This document shows, one piece after another, positions 13,647-21,140 of a stretch of DNA of 64,000 bases. Below the pieces are notes generated by a model. That model did no database searches and was not told the origin of the DNA. It saw only the letters and a program-made list of their open reading frames with translations. Source of the DNA: Thermococcus sp. M39 (lineage in GTDB: Archaea > Methanobacteriota_B > Thermococci > Thermococcales > Thermococcaceae); assembly GCF_012027325.1 (NCBI RefSeq), contig NZ_SNUG01000003.1, positions 186,001-250,000 of the forward strand. The letters run 5' to 3'. Position numbers and translations under genes: made by a program. Each line of letters starts with the position of its first letter. Position 1 is the first letter of the stretch.

Positions 13647-14654
13647 TCAGATTTTACCTACCAGGTGGCACTCGACCCAGTGGTTGTGCTCGTATTCAAT
13701 GAGTTGTGGATGCTTGGCATCACAGAGCCCTTTCTCCATGTAGATACATCTTGGATGGAATCTGCATCCTGGTGGAATGTTTACTGCGCTTGGAACTTCA
13801 CCCTTAATTGGCAGTTCTTTGATGATGTTTCTTCTCTCCGGAATTGGCTCTGGAACAGCTGCTAAGAGAGCTCTGGTATATGGGTGAAGTGGATTATCGA
13901 TGACAACTTTAGCTGGGCCCATTTCAACAATTCTCCCCAAGTACATGACTGCTATCCAGTCGGCGAAGTATCTTGCCGTTGAAAGATCGTGGGTAATGTA
14001 GAGGTATGTAACTCCCATCTTTTCCTTGAGCTCCTTCATCAGCTCAAGAATCTCTGCTCTAATAGAGACGTCAAGCATCGAAACAGGCTCGTCTGCAACG
14101 ATGAATGTTGGATTCAAGATGAGTGCTCTTGCAATAGCAACTCTCTGTCTCTGACCACCTGAAAGCATGTGTGGGTGTCTTCCAACGTAATCCTCTGGTG
14201 GAACTATCTTAACCATTTCTAATGCCTTGTAGATGAGCTCTTCTCTCTCTGCCCTTGTTTCACCTATTCCGTGAATTAAGAGAGGCTCCTCAAGAACGTC
14301 GTATATTCTGAATCTCGGGTTCATTGATGAGAAAGGATCCTGGAATATCATCTGAACTTTTCTTCTGTACGCCTTAATTTCTTCTTGCGTCTTAAGGTTA
14401 GTAACATCTTTTCCTTCCAGATATATTCTACCATCTGTAGGCTCAAGGAGCTTCATGACGAGCTTTCCTGTTGTTGTTTTACCACAACCGCTCTCACCGA
14501 CTAAAGCAAAGACTTCCTGCTTATGAACTTCAAAGCTAACGCCATCAACAGCTCTAACGAATCTCGGAGGCTCCCCTCTGAGTGCTCCGAGCAATCCTCT
14601 CTTGATTGGGAAGTACTTCTTAAGATTTTCAACTTTCAAAATCGGCTCAGCCAT
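13647..14654 (-). CDS. peptide-type ABC transporter ATPase (OppF/DppF-like)
   Basis: One of two ATPase subunits of an oligopeptide/dipeptide-family importer, 335 residues. It has Walker A GESGCGKT (about 53-60), signature LSGGQRQ, Walker B ADEP, and the family's carboxyl extension with the Cys-rich PPGCRFHPRCIYMEKGLC segment. That segment binds an Fe-S cluster in some homologs. It is the last gene of the five-gene cluster. The ATG at 14654 follows GAGGGATG. It lies 10 bases after the OppD-like gene. Confidence 0.93.
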   Translation of the reverse strand: MAEPILKVENLKKYFPIKRGLLGALRGEPPRFVRAVDGVSFEVHKQEVFALVGESGCGKTTTGKLVMKLLEPTDGRIYLEGKDVTNLKTQEEIKAYRRKVQMIFQDPFSSMNPRFRIYDVLEEPLLIHGIGETRAEREELIYKALEMVKIVPPEDYVGRHPHMLSGGQRQRVAIARALILNPTFIVADEPVSMLDVSIRAEILELMKELKEKMGVTYLYITHDLSTARYFADWIAVMYLGRIVEMGPAKVVIDNPLHPYTRALLAAVPEPIPERRNIIKELPIKGEVPSAVNIPPGCRFHPRCIYMEKGLCDAKHPQLIEYEHNHWVECHLVGKI

Positions 14655-14664
14655 CTTTCATCCC

Positions 14665-15624
14665 TCACAACAGCCAGCATGCTGCATAGTGGTCTTTATC
14701 AATCTCCTTCAGCTCTGGCTCCTGCTCTCTACATACCTGCATTGCATATGGACACCTCGGGTGGAATCTACAACCGCTTGGTGGTTTAATGAGGTTTGGT
14801 GGTTGTCCCGGGATGAATTCAAGCTTATCAACATCTTCGTGCAGTCTTGGGATTGCTGCAAGTAACTTCTGTGTGTATGGGTGAGCTGGCTCATAGTAAA
14901 TCTTCTGACTGTCACCAATCTCGATTATCTTTCCAGCATACATGATTGCCACTCTGTCGCTAATCTCTGCAAGAATGCTCAAGTCGTGTGTAATGAATAT
15001 CATTGAAAGTCCAAGCTCTTTCTTAAGCTTCTTCATTAAGTTGATGATCTGCGCTTGAACAACGACGTCGAGAGCTGTTGTTGGCTCATCAGCAATGACA
15101 ACCTCTGGTTCGAGAATTAATGCCGTTGCAATGACAACTCTCTGCTTCATACCACCGCTTAACTCGTGTGGATACCTGTAAACAATCTCCGGTGAAAGAC
15201 CAACTAGCTCAAGGTACCTCATTGCTCTGTCCAAAGCTTCCTCTTTGTCCATACCCTTGTGATAAATAAGCGGCTCAATCATCTGATAACCAATTGTATA
15301 AACTGGATTCAAAGCATTCATTGCACCTTGGAATATCATTGAAATCTTTTGCCATCTAATTTCCCTTCTCAACACATCTTCTGGAAGTCCTACAATCTCC
15401 CTGCCATCGATTTTAACGCTACCACCGACTATCTTTCCTGGAGGAGTTGGCATTCCCATTAAAGTAAAACCAAGGGAGGACTTGCCACATCCGCTCTCTC
15501 CGGCAAGTCCCAAGACTTCTCCCTTCTTGAGCTCAAAGCTAACACTGTCAACGGCTTTGACGACACCTCTGGATGTGAAGTAATACATCTTAAGATCTTT
15601 AACTTCAAGGACAGTTCTAGCCAT
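14665..15624 (-). CDS. peptide-type ABC transporter ATPase (OppD/DppD-like)
   Basis: Second ATPase subunit, 319 residues, paired with the OppF-like one as a heterodimer on the cytoplasmic face. It has Walker A GESGCGKS (about 42-49), LSGGMKQR, Walker B IADEP, and the carboxyl CRFHPRCPYAMQVC segment shared by the family. The ATG at 15624 follows GAGGTGTG. It is ten bases from both neighbours' ends, inside the transporter operon. Confidence 0.93.
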   Translation of the reverse strand: MARTVLEVKDLKMYYFTSRGVVKAVDSVSFELKKGEVLGLAGESGCGKSSLGFTLMGMPTPPGKIVGGSVKIDGREIVGLPEDVLRREIRWQKISMIFQGAMNALNPVYTIGYQMIEPLIYHKGMDKEEALDRAMRYLELVGLSPEIVYRYPHELSGGMKQRVVIATALILEPEVVIADEPTTALDVVVQAQIINLMKKLKKELGLSMIFITHDLSILAEISDRVAIMYAGKIIEIGDSQKIYYEPAHPYTQKLLAAIPRLHEDVDKLEFIPGQPPNLIKPPSGCRFHPRCPYAMQVCREQEPELKEIDKDHYAACWLL

Positions 15625-15634
15625 TTTTCACACC

Positions 15635-17077
15635 TCACAACCTCTTGAGTCTTGGGTTTAACACTCTATCCAATGCTACACCAATAAGCACGAATGTCAA
15701 TGCGACTAATGAAATTGCCAGTCCTGGTGGAATGACCCACCACCAGTATCCGTTAATTGTTGCGCTGTTTGTCTGAGCATCATAGAGGATTTGTCCCCAT
15801 GTAACTGCTGTTGGGTCACCAAGTCCAAGGAAGCTTAGCGATGCCTCTGTTAAAACTGCTCCAGGAACGCTCAATGCCATGACAGCAAATGCATATGGCA
15901 TGATCTGTGGCATGATGTGCTTGAAGATAATTCTTCCAGTTCCAGCACCCAACGCTTTTGCCGCTTCAACATAAGTTTGCTCTTTAATCTGAAGTGCCAT
16001 ACTTCTAGCAACCTTAGCAATTCCCGTCCAACCGAACATTACTAGGAGGAAAACTATTGTCCACAGTGTAACGTGTCCCTTGAATGCTGCACCTAAGAGG
16101 ATAAGGATTGGCAGTGTCGGGATTGAAGCAACAAACTCGTTAACTCTCTGCATGAACTCGTCCTTCCAGCCACCAAGGTATGCACTTGTAACACCGTAAG
16201 CAATTCCGATTAAAACGCTCAAGACTGCAACTGAAACACCAACGACAAGTGAAACTCTTGTTCCCCAAACTAAACCAGCCCAAAGGTCTCTTCCCTTGTA
16301 ATCTGTTCCCATCAGTCCGTATGTTCTTCCAGTGAGGATAATCTGAATTGGTTTTAAGTCAATTTTATCCCCCTCATTGAATGTGAAGATTTCAACTTGG
16401 AACTTGTAGTCTCCATGAAGCGGCTGTGGATTTACAAGTATTCCTGGTTCAGCTTTTGCAAATATAACCTCCATAACATCCATTGTGCTCTTTATCGTCT
16501 CCACTCTGCCCTCAAGGTTCTTCGGATCTTCAAATTGTGAAGCCCAGTTGAACACATTGTTCCTAACCGTGCCCATCTTTGCAATTTGATAGATTGAACC
16601 CTCTATCAAATCAGCACTTAAAAGCTCAATTTTCTGACCATCCGGTCTGTATACTGAGATAACAATTTGAGCCGGGGAATTCAAATCAGCTAGCTGAACT
16701 CCAATGTTCTTTATTATCAAGTCTTTTGGGGGCAAATCATATCTATTGTTGTAGTCAAATTCAAAAGCATAGTACTTTATTCCTCCTCCTAAATCCTCGC
16801 CTTCTTGTGTGATCTTTAAGTTGTCATATGTTAGGACTTCGTGAGCTGCAAGCTTCTTCGTTGTGAAGTAGTTGTACCAAACTGGAGGAACATTAGTTGG
16901 ATTTCCTTCCCAGTATGTAGTCCACTTCTTTGGTATGTCTGGCTCAGTTATGTAGGGTGCCGCTATGGCTGTGAAAACTAAGAGAGCAAGTAAGAATAAT
17001 CCAAGCAATCCACCTTTTTGCCTTCTAAATTCAAACCAAAAGTCCTTAAGGCTCTCTTTTACATCAACCCATCTCAT
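15635..17077 (-). CDS. peptide-type ABC permease (DppC-like) with large outside domain
   Basis: A permease of 480 residues, well above the usual 280-300. After the first helix (about 22-41), residues 43-252 form a soluble, beta-rich region outside the membrane. The standard permease core follows, starting with the family motif GTDYKGRDLWAG; the EAA loop (EAAKALGAG, about 371-379) contacts the ATPases. The inserted domain may contact the binding protein or glycan/S-layer material; that is inference. The ATG is at 17077. The gene sits between the partner permease and the ATPases. Confidence 0.92.
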   Translation of the reverse strand: MRWVDVKESLKDFWFEFRRQKGGLLGLFLLALLVFTAIAAPYITEPDIPKKWTTYWEGNPTNVPPVWYNYFTTKKLAAHEVLTYDNLKITQEGEDLGGGIKYYAFEFDYNNRYDLPPKDLIIKNIGVQLADLNSPAQIVISVYRPDGQKIELLSADLIEGSIYQIAKMGTVRNNVFNWASQFEDPKNLEGRVETIKSTMDVMEVIFAKAEPGILVNPQPLHGDYKFQVEIFTFNEGDKIDLKPIQIILTGRTYGLMGTDYKGRDLWAGLVWGTRVSLVVGVSVAVLSVLIGIAYGVTSAYLGGWKDEFMQRVNEFVASIPTLPILILLGAAFKGHVTLWTIVFLLVMFGWTGIAKVARSMALQIKEQTYVEAAKALGAGTGRIIFKHIMPQIMPYAFAVMALSVPGAVLTEASLSFLGLGDPTAVTWGQILYDAQTNSATINGYWWWVIPPGLAISLVALTFVLIGVALDRVLNPRLKRL

Positions 17078-17087
17078 CTACCTCACC

Positions 17088-18149
17088 TCATGTGCTCTGG
17101 GATGCACCAACTTTAACTCTTGGATCAAGGTAACCATATGCCAAGTCTGCAAGGATCATGCTTATTAGATAGAGTGCAACTGTAACGAATGTAACACCCA
17201 TGAGGAGCCTTGTCTCGTTCTGCTGCAAAGCAGTCCAGTAGAGTCTTCCCATTCCTGGCCAGTTGAAAACACCCTCTGTAATGATTGCACCACCAAGAGA
17301 TCCGAGAAGACTGAATATTGTCATTGTGATGATCGGTGGAGCAGCTGCTCTTAAAGCGTGACCGTAAATTACCTTCCTCTCTGGGACACCCTTAGCTCTT
17401 GCAGCCATGATGAAGTCTTCTTGCATTGTACCAATCATGATATTTCTTGTTGTCCATGCCCATCCACCAAAGAGAACGAACACAATTGTTCCAACTGGAA
17501 GCACCATATGATACAGGATGTCAGTATAATATGCAAATCCTTCCTTAGGTGGAGTAGATGTCATACCACCACTTGGGAACCAGCCCAATTTGAATGAGAA
17601 AATTAGGATTGCAATCATTCCGAACCACCACATTGGTATACTGCTCGTAAGCATTGCAATGATAGAAACTGCTCTGTCCAATGCACTCCCTGCAACTTGT
17701 GCTGCCTTAACTCCCAAGAGAAGACCAATCAAAATAACAATTATTTGAGCTGTTGTGAAGAGTAAAACTGTTCTTGGGATTGCTGCAGCAATAATCTTTT
17801 TCACATTTGTTTCACCAAATATTGGTGTCTTTGTATTTCCGAAGTTTAAGGTGAGTGTGTCTTTTGTTCTCTCTAAGACCCTAACCCAGAAGGGCTTATC
17901 CAGTCCATAAGCATGAATTAATCTGTTGTACTCATTTTGATACCACTGTTGGAATCTTTCGGGATCAGCTGAGAGCTGTTTCATTAACTCGGGATTTGCT
18001 CTCAGTTTCATATTTATCTGCTCTTGTATGCTTGATTTTAAGTCTTCTTCTGCAACTTTCGTAAACAAAACTGAAACAAGTAGCGTTACTAATGCCAGCA
18101 CTAAAAGTGCATTTAACAGCCTAATTGCTAGATAACGACCGTACCCCAA
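17088..18149 (-). CDS. peptide-type ABC permease (DppB-like)
   Basis: Partner permease of 353 residues. The first helix is at about 8-27, then an outside segment of about 90 residues, then the five-helix core with an EAA-type loop (MAARAKGVPERK). The start is a TTG at 18147-18149, chosen because GGAGGTG lies six bases upstream. It is the first gene of the membrane and ATPase block and has its own promoter after the binding-protein gene. Confidence 0.92.
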   Translation of the reverse strand: MGYGRYLAIRLLNALLVLALVTLLVSVLFTKVAEEDLKSSIQEQINMKLRANPELMKQLSADPERFQQWYQNEYNRLIHAYGLDKPFWVRVLERTKDTLTLNFGNTKTPIFGETNVKKIIAAAIPRTVLLFTTAQIIVILIGLLLGVKAAQVAGSALDRAVSIIAMLTSSIPMWWFGMIAILIFSFKLGWFPSGGMTSTPPKEGFAYYTDILYHMVLPVGTIVFVLFGGWAWTTRNIMIGTMQEDFIMAARAKGVPERKVIYGHALRAAAPPIITMTIFSLLGSLGGAIITEGVFNWPGMGRLYWTALQQNETRLLMGVTFVTVALYLISMILADLAYGYLDPRVKVGASQST

Positions 18150-18392: not shown

Positions 18393-21140
18393 TCACTTTC
18401 TTCTTCTCAAGAGCAGTGGAATCAATGCTAATCCAACAAGGGCTGCTGGACCACAGATTCCACCGCCAGTTGTTGTGGTTGGTGATGGGCTCTCTGATGT
18501 GGTGGTTGTTGTAGTTGTTGTGGTTGTAGTGGTTGTTGTCTTTGATGTGATTTCCTTCTTGATGACGACGACCGTCTTCTTGTCTGTGAATGATGTAACG
18601 CCCTCCATGAGTCCGCCTTTGACGTAGATGTCGTATCTTCCTGCCTCCCACTTAGCTGTCTCTGATCCTGGAACGACAAGTTCAAATACTCCAGCCTTTG
18701 CAAGCTTAGCCTCACCACTGTAGACTATGTTGCCGTTCTCGTCTCTTATCTCAACATAGACGAATCCCTTGTCAGCCGGCTGTGTTCCCTCTGTTGGGTA
18801 CTCAACGACCATGTTTGCTTTAACCTCAATCTTCAAGTCGTCTCCGGTGAAGACTCTTGTTGGGACGCTGACACCAGCAAGCTCGAGCTTTGCAAGGATG
18901 AGCTTCTGCTTCCAGTAGTCAACGCTGAATGGATAGGTTGGGTCTCTAAATGCTTTGAGCTCAACGAAGATCTTATCTGGGTCGTACCTCTCGATATAGA
19001 ATGGACCGTTGCTGACGACTGCATTGCCGTGAGTGTCAATCCACTTGATGAGTGCGTCGTAGCCTGGTGTTGGATCCTTGACATCGTCAGCAATTGGAGC
19101 TGGAACAGCCTTCTTGGCCTTGAGAGCCTCGATAACTTTCTTCAAGTCTGCAACGTGGTCCTTGATGAGCAAGTCGAGCTGTGCAACACCCTCTGCCTCC
19201 TCACTGAATGAGTACTTCTGTGAAGCTCCGTACTCTTGTCCCTTTGCAACGAGCTCACCCATTGCATAGAGGAGCTGCCATGGAAGTGTTGGCCAGACAG
19301 CGTTGTTTGCAGCGATAACATCGTCAGCGATTGGGTGGATGTAGTCTGTGTAGACTACAATTGTGTCCTCGTCAACGAACTCGTAACCCTTAATCTGGTT
19401 AGCGATATCAACGAATGCGTTTGCGATCTTCTCGTCGTAGTATGGATCATCGTCTCCGTTCTTGTATGCCCACTCGTAGTTGAATGCAATTGCATACTTG
19501 AAGTCTGCCATTGTCATTGGTGTTCCATCGTGCCAGTTGCCAAGCTTACAGTCGTAGGTGACCTTAGCCTTAGCTTCCTCACCAGCGTGAGCAGCAACCC
19601 ACTTCTGGAGTGTTGCATTCCAGATAACTGCATCATCTGGGACCTTAATTGGTCCTCTCTCAACCTTGAACTCACATCTGACTGGGATGTATGTTCCAGT
19701 TGAGAGGTCTGTAAAGACTGGGTAGTCCCTAACAACTCTCCAGATTGCTGATGCGTAAACGTCGTCAATACCACCAATTGGGTTGAATGCGCTCATGAAG
19801 AGTGCACCAGTTGCTGAGTACTCAGCGACGTTAACAACCTTGTCTGGGGTCTCTGCTGTGATCAAGCTCCATCTTGTCCAGAGACCGCTTGAAACGTCCC
19901 TTGCAATTGACTTAACTCTGTTCTTGTTAACTGGGAAGTACTCCCAAGTCTCTGCAGTGAACATTCTGATGCTGTCCATTATACCGAGACCCATGCTTAT
20001 CTTCTGGAGGTCCCAGTACTGGTCAGCATTGCCCTCCTCAAGGACGTACTTCTTGCCGTTGATCTCAACGCTTGTGAGGACGAGAAGCTTTGTAACATCG
20101 TCAATTGTCCAGTCGTAGATTTCTTTGAGCTTGTCACCACCATAGTACTTAAGATCGAGTGCCTCAACAGCCTTATCTGGACCGCCAATGTAGTCGATGA
20201 AGTCCTTAACTGTGAGGGTTGGCTTGTACTCCCATCCGACTGGAGCTGGAAGCCAGCCATACCAGTCAGCATACCAGAAGGCAGTGTAGTCATCTGGCCA
20301 CTTGATGTTGACTGTTGAAACCCAACCAGCAGTGTAGAGGTTCCACTCATAGTTCTTTGGATCGCTCAAGTAGACTGTTGATGAAGCCTTTCTTCTGTCC
20401 CAGAGAAGCCTCTCAACCTTAAATCCAAGGTACTTCTCAATTAAGTCAGCAACATAGAGACCTTCGTCCTTTCTTCTGTCCTCAATTCTGATGATGAACT
20501 TAACTGTGACTGGCTCACCGTTGAAGTACCAGAATCCATCATCCTTCTTCTCAAGCTTGTAGCCCTGCTTTGCCAATTCCTCAGCAGCCTTCTTCATTGC
20601 CTCGTCAACCATCTGCTGAGCCTTGGCAATATCAGCTGTAGCTGAAATTCCAAGAGCCTTGTAAACTGGCTCGAAGTATGGGTTTGCACCTGTGCTTGGT
20701 CTGATACCGCCGATCATTGGTGCACCTGAACCCTGGAGAATGTTCTGGACAATGTACTGTCTGCTGACGAGCCAGTTCATTGCAAATCTTATCTCTCTAA
20801 TTGCAAATGGGTTGAAGTACTTCTTATCACCAACTGTGATCAAGTATGGGTTGTCGTCATCATGAACTGGATTCATGGTGATTTCCCAGTAACCGCTTGC
20901 TGTCTTAATGAGCTTCAAGTTGTTCAAAACATCTGCTGGCAAGTCTTTGAATTTAGCACCAGAGACTGACCAAAGGAAGATGTCCAAGTCTCCCTTTGCA
21001 ACGTCAGTGATACCAGTTTCTTCGTTAGTCCTAATTGAAATATAGACTTTGTCAGGGGCAGGCCCCTGCTCTGCTGCAGCTAATGGTCCTAAGAGCATAA
21101 CAAAAACAAACAACAAGGCCAAAATTCCAGACCTCTTCAT
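18393..21140 (-). CDS. SBP_bac_5-type binding protein, permuted, CGP-CTERM
   Basis: Solute-binding protein of the adjacent peptide-family ABC importer, 915 residues (family usually about 550-650). The signal peptide is residues 1-23. Motif order is unusual. Segments normally in the second half come first: KGDLDIF at 49-55, then the NP..IREIRFAMNWLVSRQYI region at 110-130. The normal first half follows later: FNPIGG at 452-457, HDGTP at 537-541 and NGPFYIERYDP at 711-721. An Ig-like beta domain (about 748-860) is next, then a Thr-rich linker (868-881) and a CGP-CTERM tail (CGPAALVGL.. RRRK, 896-915), the Thermococcales sorting signal. The ATG follows GGGAGGAC. The substrate is probably peptides, or oligosaccharides as for some archaeal members. 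Confidence 0.92.
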   Translation of the reverse strand: MKRSGILALLFVFVMLLGPLAAAEQGPAPDKVYISIRTNEETGITDVAKGDLDIFLWSVSGAKFKDLPADVLNNLKLIKTASGYWEITMNPVHDDDNPYLITVGDKKYFNPFAIREIRFAMNWLVSRQYIVQNILQGSGAPMIGGIRPSTGANPYFEPVYKALGISATADIAKAQQMVDEAMKKAAEELAKQGYKLEKKDDGFWYFNGEPVTVKFIIRIEDRRKDEGLYVADLIEKYLGFKVERLLWDRRKASSTVYLSDPKNYEWNLYTAGWVSTVNIKWPDDYTAFWYADWYGWLPAPVGWEYKPTLTVKDFIDYIGGPDKAVEALDLKYYGGDKLKEIYDWTIDDVTKLLVLTSVEINGKKYVLEEGNADQYWDLQKISMGLGIMDSIRMFTAETWEYFPVNKNRVKSIARDVSSGLWTRWSLITAETPDKVVNVAEYSATGALFMSAFNPIGGIDDVYASAIWRVVRDYPVFTDLSTGTYIPVRCEFKVERGPIKVPDDAVIWNATLQKWVAAHAGEEAKAKVTYDCKLGNWHDGTPMTMADFKYAIAFNYEWAYKNGDDDPYYDEKIANAFVDIANQIKGYEFVDEDTIVVYTDYIHPIADDVIAANNAVWPTLPWQLLYAMGELVAKGQEYGASQKYSFSEEAEGVAQLDLLIKDHVADLKKVIEALKAKKAVPAPIADDVKDPTPGYDALIKWIDTHGNAVVSNGPFYIERYDPDKIFVELKAFRDPTYPFSVDYWKQKLILAKLELAGVSVPTRVFTGDDLKIEVKANMVVEYPTEGTQPADKGFVYVEIRDENGNIVYSGEAKLAKAGVFELVVPGSETAKWEAGRYDIYVKGGLMEGVTSFTDKKTVVVIKKEITSKTTTTTTTTTTTTTTSESPSPTTTTGGGICGPAALVGLALIPLLLRRRK

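Follow-up and report, generated by a model that had tools for sequence, protein, structure and literature searches.

Can the receptor of a peptide importer be exported and anchored when the two halves of its chain stand in exchanged order? This question is raised by one gene in Thermococcus sp. M39, which lies in a 64,000-nucleotide stretch of DNA (the window, meaning the whole stretch). The gene runs from 21140 to 18393 on the minus strand, starts with ATG and forms a single open frame, and its parts follow one another as S2-S3-S1-Ig-Thr-CGP in a protein of 915 residues, where the segments are named by their place in the normal order: S1 is query 433-738, S2 is 38-320 and S3 is 323-429. These parts, and the genes that follow, are as listed here.

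18393..21140, minus strand: circularly permuted OppA-like solute-binding protein (SBP); ORF of 915 amino acids, reversed-order match to 7fi3, SBP_bac_5
21072..21140, minus strand: putative signal peptide, residues 1-23 (MKRSGILALLFVFVMLLGPLAAA), recognized by eye, with its start kept in collinear relatives
19854..21029, minus strand: S2+S3, residues 38-429, equivalent to the C-terminal half of normal OppA (7fi3 chain 331-721); phmmer 314.5 bits, AlphaFold model
19845..19853, minus strand: joint ETP, residues 430-432, by which the old C-terminus runs on into the old N-terminus; the gap between the phmmer stretches
18927..19844, minus strand: S1, residues 433-738, equivalent to the N-terminal half of normal OppA (7fi3 chain 4-310); phmmer 185.8 bits
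18561..18884, minus strand: Ig-like domain, residues 753-860; weak FlgD_ig match, conserved in the Ig clade of relatives
18465..18545, minus strand: Thr-rich linker, residues 866-892; from the sequence
18399..18458, minus strand: CGP-CTERM membrane anchor signal, residues 895-914; TIGR04288, 29.6 bits against a cut-off of 21
17088..18149, minus strand: ABC permease (DppB/OppB-like); from the sequence, with orthologues following the SBP gene in all operon orders
15635..17077, minus strand: ABC permease (DppC/OppC-like), its first membrane helix followed by a long insert; from the sequence, conserved in relatives
14665..15624, minus strand: ABC ATPase (DppD/OppD-like); from the sequence, conserved in relatives
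13647..14654, minus strand: ABC ATPase (DppF/OppF-like); from the sequence, conserved in relatives

As to the chain order, a phmmer search of the PDB sequences returned one relevant relative, 7fi3_A (total E 7e-147), which is the OppA of Thermococcus kodakarensis (TkOppA) solved with an endogenous pentapeptide, and the match consists of two stretches in swapped order: query 38-429 aligns to 7fi3 chain 331-721 (314.5 bits, i-E 1.7e-92) and query 433-738 to chain 4-310 (185.8 bits, i-E 1.4e-53). The Pfam profile SBP_bac_5 (PF00496) scores 62.8 bits, above its curated threshold of 32.4, and its positions 145-360 of 368 align to residues 26-289, i.e. the second part of the profile lies at the start of the protein; in a separate genome search with SBP_bac_5, profile positions 5-152 fall further downstream in the same ORF (L006). 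The preliminary description had proposed a circular permutation in an exported, anchored protein with second-half motifs coming first, and these alignments bear out both proposals; its landmarks KGDLDIF (residues 49-55) and DYW (741-743) do lie at those positions in the translation, and the anchor signal that it named is recognized by TIGR04288 above the cut-off. The Ig-like domain fared less evenly, as the segment is conserved in close relatives but its profile support is weak (FlgD_ig E 7e-4, under the Pfam cut-off). The canonical collinear N-to-C order of SBP_bac_5 is absent from the 915-residue protein, which is homologous but permuted, and no collinear single alignment of it to normal SBP_bac_5 proteins or to 7fi3 was found, an outcome named beforehand as contrary to a permutation. 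Two separate complete binding domains are ruled out because only one set of segments, and hence one set of halves, is present. At the level of sequence, a true circular permutation of an OppA-like protein is confirmed.

Might the swapped order nevertheless be a product of assembly or annotation? The assembly from which the window comes has 54 contigs, which speaks for such a reading, but 94 searched genomes of the family yielded 16 full-length collinear copies, the window's own included (57-100% identical), several of them in one- or two-contig genomes, some single-contig or complete, and the gene is one open frame with a signal-like start and an anchor. We reject an assembly artefact as refuted by these collinear copies, and we put the chance of any such error at practically nil. 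The other full-length relatives are 57-91% identical and belong to several genera, which answers the suggestion in the preliminary description that permuted relatives be sought in other Thermococcales.

Is the window protein's order the only departure from the normal one? We built segment profiles and scanned them over all ORFs of the fetched loci. The normal order, N (S1-S2-S3), is common; order A, that of the window protein, is S2-S3-S1; order B is S3-S1-S2; order C is S1b-S2-S3-S1a, with a cut inside S1; and order D, seen in a single protein, is cut inside S3. The 110 tree-labelled sequences comprise 39 of N, 38 of A, 23 of C, 9 of B and 1 of D. Direct searches against 7fi3 bear out these orders independently of the segment profiles: a C-order protein (L046) matches chain 259-723 and then 4-241, a B-order protein (L064) matches 620-722 and then 4-616, and the D-order protein (L142) matches 660-724 and then 6-653, whereas a normal-order control (L117), which heads the same operon, matches chain 1-726 in one stretch. 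The cuts in the 7fi3 chain are at ~310-331 for A, ~241-259 for C, ~616-620 for B and ~653-660 for D; from known OppA domain boundaries, we take cut A to be the first crossing between the lobes. TkOppA itself is a Cluster C protein to which both halves of the window protein are homologous over ~700 residues, and compared with it, the window protein has its halves swapped, its old ends fused and an Ig-like domain placed before the anchor. Judged from these sequences, the normal order and four circular permutations, i.e. at least five chain orders, occur within ~110 relatives, and two or three orders coexist in several genomes (for example, A, B and C in G014).

What fold would the permuted chain take? 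A first AlphaFold model, made with 9 alignment rows, was poor (pLDDT 51.5) and was set aside; a model of residues 24-742, for which fragments of B- and C-order relatives were added, reached pLDDT 82.4 and pTM 0.76. Both Foldseek and VIA-align ranked 7fi3 first for this model, with model residues 2-410 superimposed on 7fi3 residues 347-754 (Z 37.7, rmsd 3.3 over 399 residues, 39% identity). Because both programs keep chain order, the match they could make was confined to the first half of the model; the predicted structure supports an OppA fold for that half (the part within residues 38-429), and an OppA fold of the second half is suggested by its 185.8 bits of similarity to 7fi3. With the chain permuted at the hinge, the lobes should be linked by fewer covalent crossings, and one might thus imagine a domain-swapped dimer in which each site is built from halves of two molecules. 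The old ends, however, are joined by just three residues, as if they touched within one molecule, and AlphaFold is fairly confident of the monomer at the pTM given above; we regard such a dimer as very improbable.

The permuted gene is the first of an intact opp operon, in which two permeases and then two ATPases follow, and SBP genes of orders N, A (with the Ig-like domain), B1 (L063-L066), C and D all stand directly upstream of the same permease and ATPase orthologues, the available flank for some loci reaching only the first permease. The insert in the second permease of the window (15635-17077) spans, by eye, ~200 residues. How often, then, has the order changed? A tree of the first permease is immune to shuffling within the SBP and covers operon copies only; on it, B forms one clade that lies within C, D lies within N and A stands separate, which amounts to four order changes, the least possible for five states. 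The tree of the SBP itself, with segments restored to the normal order, has seven order changes and rejects a single clade for B and for C (AU p ~7e-59 and ~1e-39, respectively), and in trees of S1 only and of S2 only, the N clade is retained and both B and C remain divided. Within one genome, the B2 and C copies show mosaic identity ranging from 36 to 100%, and gene conversion between same-genome copies may inflate the count of order changes. Because of this mosaic identity, and because B is one clade on the permease tree, we claim at least four changes as the safe count and take seven as the upper reading.

By what route could one gene have been cut in so many places? We propose that tandem gene copies would have fused, the old ends being joined once for A, B and C together and a second time for D, and that the fused tandem would then have been trimmed at different surface loops to give the different orders. 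Almost every protein of order A, B or C has ETP or a close variant as its S3-S1 joint, and therefore the old ends were probably joined once for these three orders. Additionally, the loop at which C is cut is kept in A and B, with 59 residues in most rows (60-61 in a few), and the S1-S2 linker has 25-30 residues in most N, B and C rows (more in some N proteins). With the ETP joint, these lengths mean that every junction is intact somewhere in the group, as expected for orders carved from a fused tandem gene, and we read the one shared joint and the otherwise intact junctions as signs of such an intermediate. Order D has its own 14-residue joint and a place in the N clade, and therefore appears to stem from a second closure.

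Tandem proteins do exist: two ORFs (L053:6379-12633 and L047:5971-9873) each hold two permuted SBP units, the A-A protein of L053 being 2085 residues long with Ig/PKD-type domains and that of L047 running off its contig. These known tandem proteins repeat a permuted unit, with long linkers, and are not the N-N ancestor postulated here; what they show is that tandem forms are tolerated, not ancestry.

The orders might instead have come, without any fused tandem ancestor, from recombination among paralogues that differ in order and coexist in a genome, or from gene fission and re-fusion. Genomes with two or three orders at once, such as G014, and the mosaic B2 and C copies would fit such a history, as would the gene's presence as two ORFs at L070, L073, L081 and L087; the split ORFs, however, overlap in different frames and could reflect sequencing errors, the halves as two independent exported genes were not found among the loci, and the finding of all junctions intact somewhere is what a tandem ancestor predicts. 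We hold this route to be unlikely, if still a serious competitor to the fused tandem. At each of the four two-ORF loci, the divided SBP gene sits beside an intact operon, and a frameshift, a pseudogene or a sequencing error could account for the division.

In the chain of the window protein, lobe II and the C-terminal part of normal OppA come first, three residues bridge the old ends, and what is normally the N-terminal part comes last, leading into an Ig stalk and the C-terminal anchor. The permuted chain would adopt the ordinary two-lobed OppA shape, and peptides would be bound in the cleft and delivered to the permeases as by the normal-order relative; given the homology and the operon, peptide binding and transport by the permuted receptor are most likely. 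Our main reading, to which we assign a probability of roughly 0.85, is that the window gene encodes the permuted peptide receptor, anchored at the cell surface, of an ABC importer for oligopeptides and that the orders arose from fused tandem copies.

As a rule, a natural circular permutation is regarded as one ancient event that sets two distant proteins apart. A tethered ABC solute-binding protein with a natural circular permutation has a precedent in TpMglB-2 of Treponema pallidum, a glucose-binding protein of Cluster B that still binds glucose and closes, and whose authors suggest that the permutation may suit tethering (PMC4990184). TpMglB-2 has the Type I/Cluster B fold, a sugar ligand, one permuted order and a moved part of weak similarity, whereas the window family is of Cluster C (PF00496), with at least four permuted orders and strong homology in every part; the window protein matches PF00496 and OppA-type structures, not the TpMglB-2-like fold (Cluster Bc). 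Among DNA methyltransferases and in saposin/swaposin, natural circular permutations come with intermediates that support permutation by duplication (PMC3320104), but these are unrelated folds, and the window family can be traced in one operon gene of one archaeal family. In the open-access literature, we found no paper that treats permuted SBP_bac_5 proteins or TkOppA and no report of several chain orders in one SBP family; thus, natural circular permutation as such was already known, as was one permuted SBP with a different class of fold, and the OppA-type case with several orders is new within that literature.

Why would the order be shuffled at all? The C-terminal stalk and anchor would depart from the hinge region in order A, from lobe II in B and D, and from a different site on lobe I in C, and the site of trimming would shift the tethered C-terminus to another place on the receptor. 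Since the Thermococcales receptors, like TpMglB-2, are also tethered, a changed tether position would be, by analogy, a reasonable motive for the shuffling. A broader proposal, which we offer tentatively and at somewhat less than even odds, is that the chain order of this receptor is evolutionarily labile, with at least four and perhaps seven re-permutations by way of persistent fused tandem copies, selected for moving around the receptor its C-terminal tether or, where one is fused, a kinase, protease or stalk. Chain order is normally fixed, and here related archaea carry one gene, in the same operon, in four differently cut forms as well as uncut; with a solved reference and live normal-order controls, the route of permutation, its cost in folding and ligand binding and the role of tether position become testable. 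Annotation is also affected, as a single-order profile reports only part of a permuted protein as its best stretch.

Beyond the family, class-level relatives G094, G095 and G097 carry the permuted gene. In a phylum sample around the Geoglobus record, it is present in 4 of 392 genomes, two of them known Geoglobus records, and the other two copies score almost exactly as the Geoglobus copies do. The Geoglobus copies (L044, L045) have order A without the Ig-like domain and a whole operon, and L151 and L152 score nearly the same; horizontal transfer is probably behind this group. A copy on a short contig labelled Candidatus Altiarchaeales (L039:239-3019) groups within Thermococcales, and the contig is probably mis-binned.

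SBP segments also occur fused to other domains. For example, in one ORF (L057:5255-9097), a membrane helix connects an A-order SBP domain with a PknB-like Ser/Thr kinase, as in a receptor-like kinase, and another (L055:4310-8671) is a normal-order SBP-kinase fusion with PEGA domains (Pfam), which L074, L076 and L077 resemble in length and SBP order. The window's own genome encodes a subtilase of 2211 residues (L049:774-7406; Peptidase_S8, PPC, CARDB) with only the S2-S3 part, and in two giant proteins (L054:6444-15116 and L059:4291-8007, the latter cut by a contig end), NosD/beta-helix repeats are fused to an SBP of A-like order. Finally, the B-order proteins outside the operon (L067, L068, L069, L048 and L071) carry an extra domain at the C-terminus that weakly resembles S-layer sequences (S_layer_C E 0.0017 for L048).
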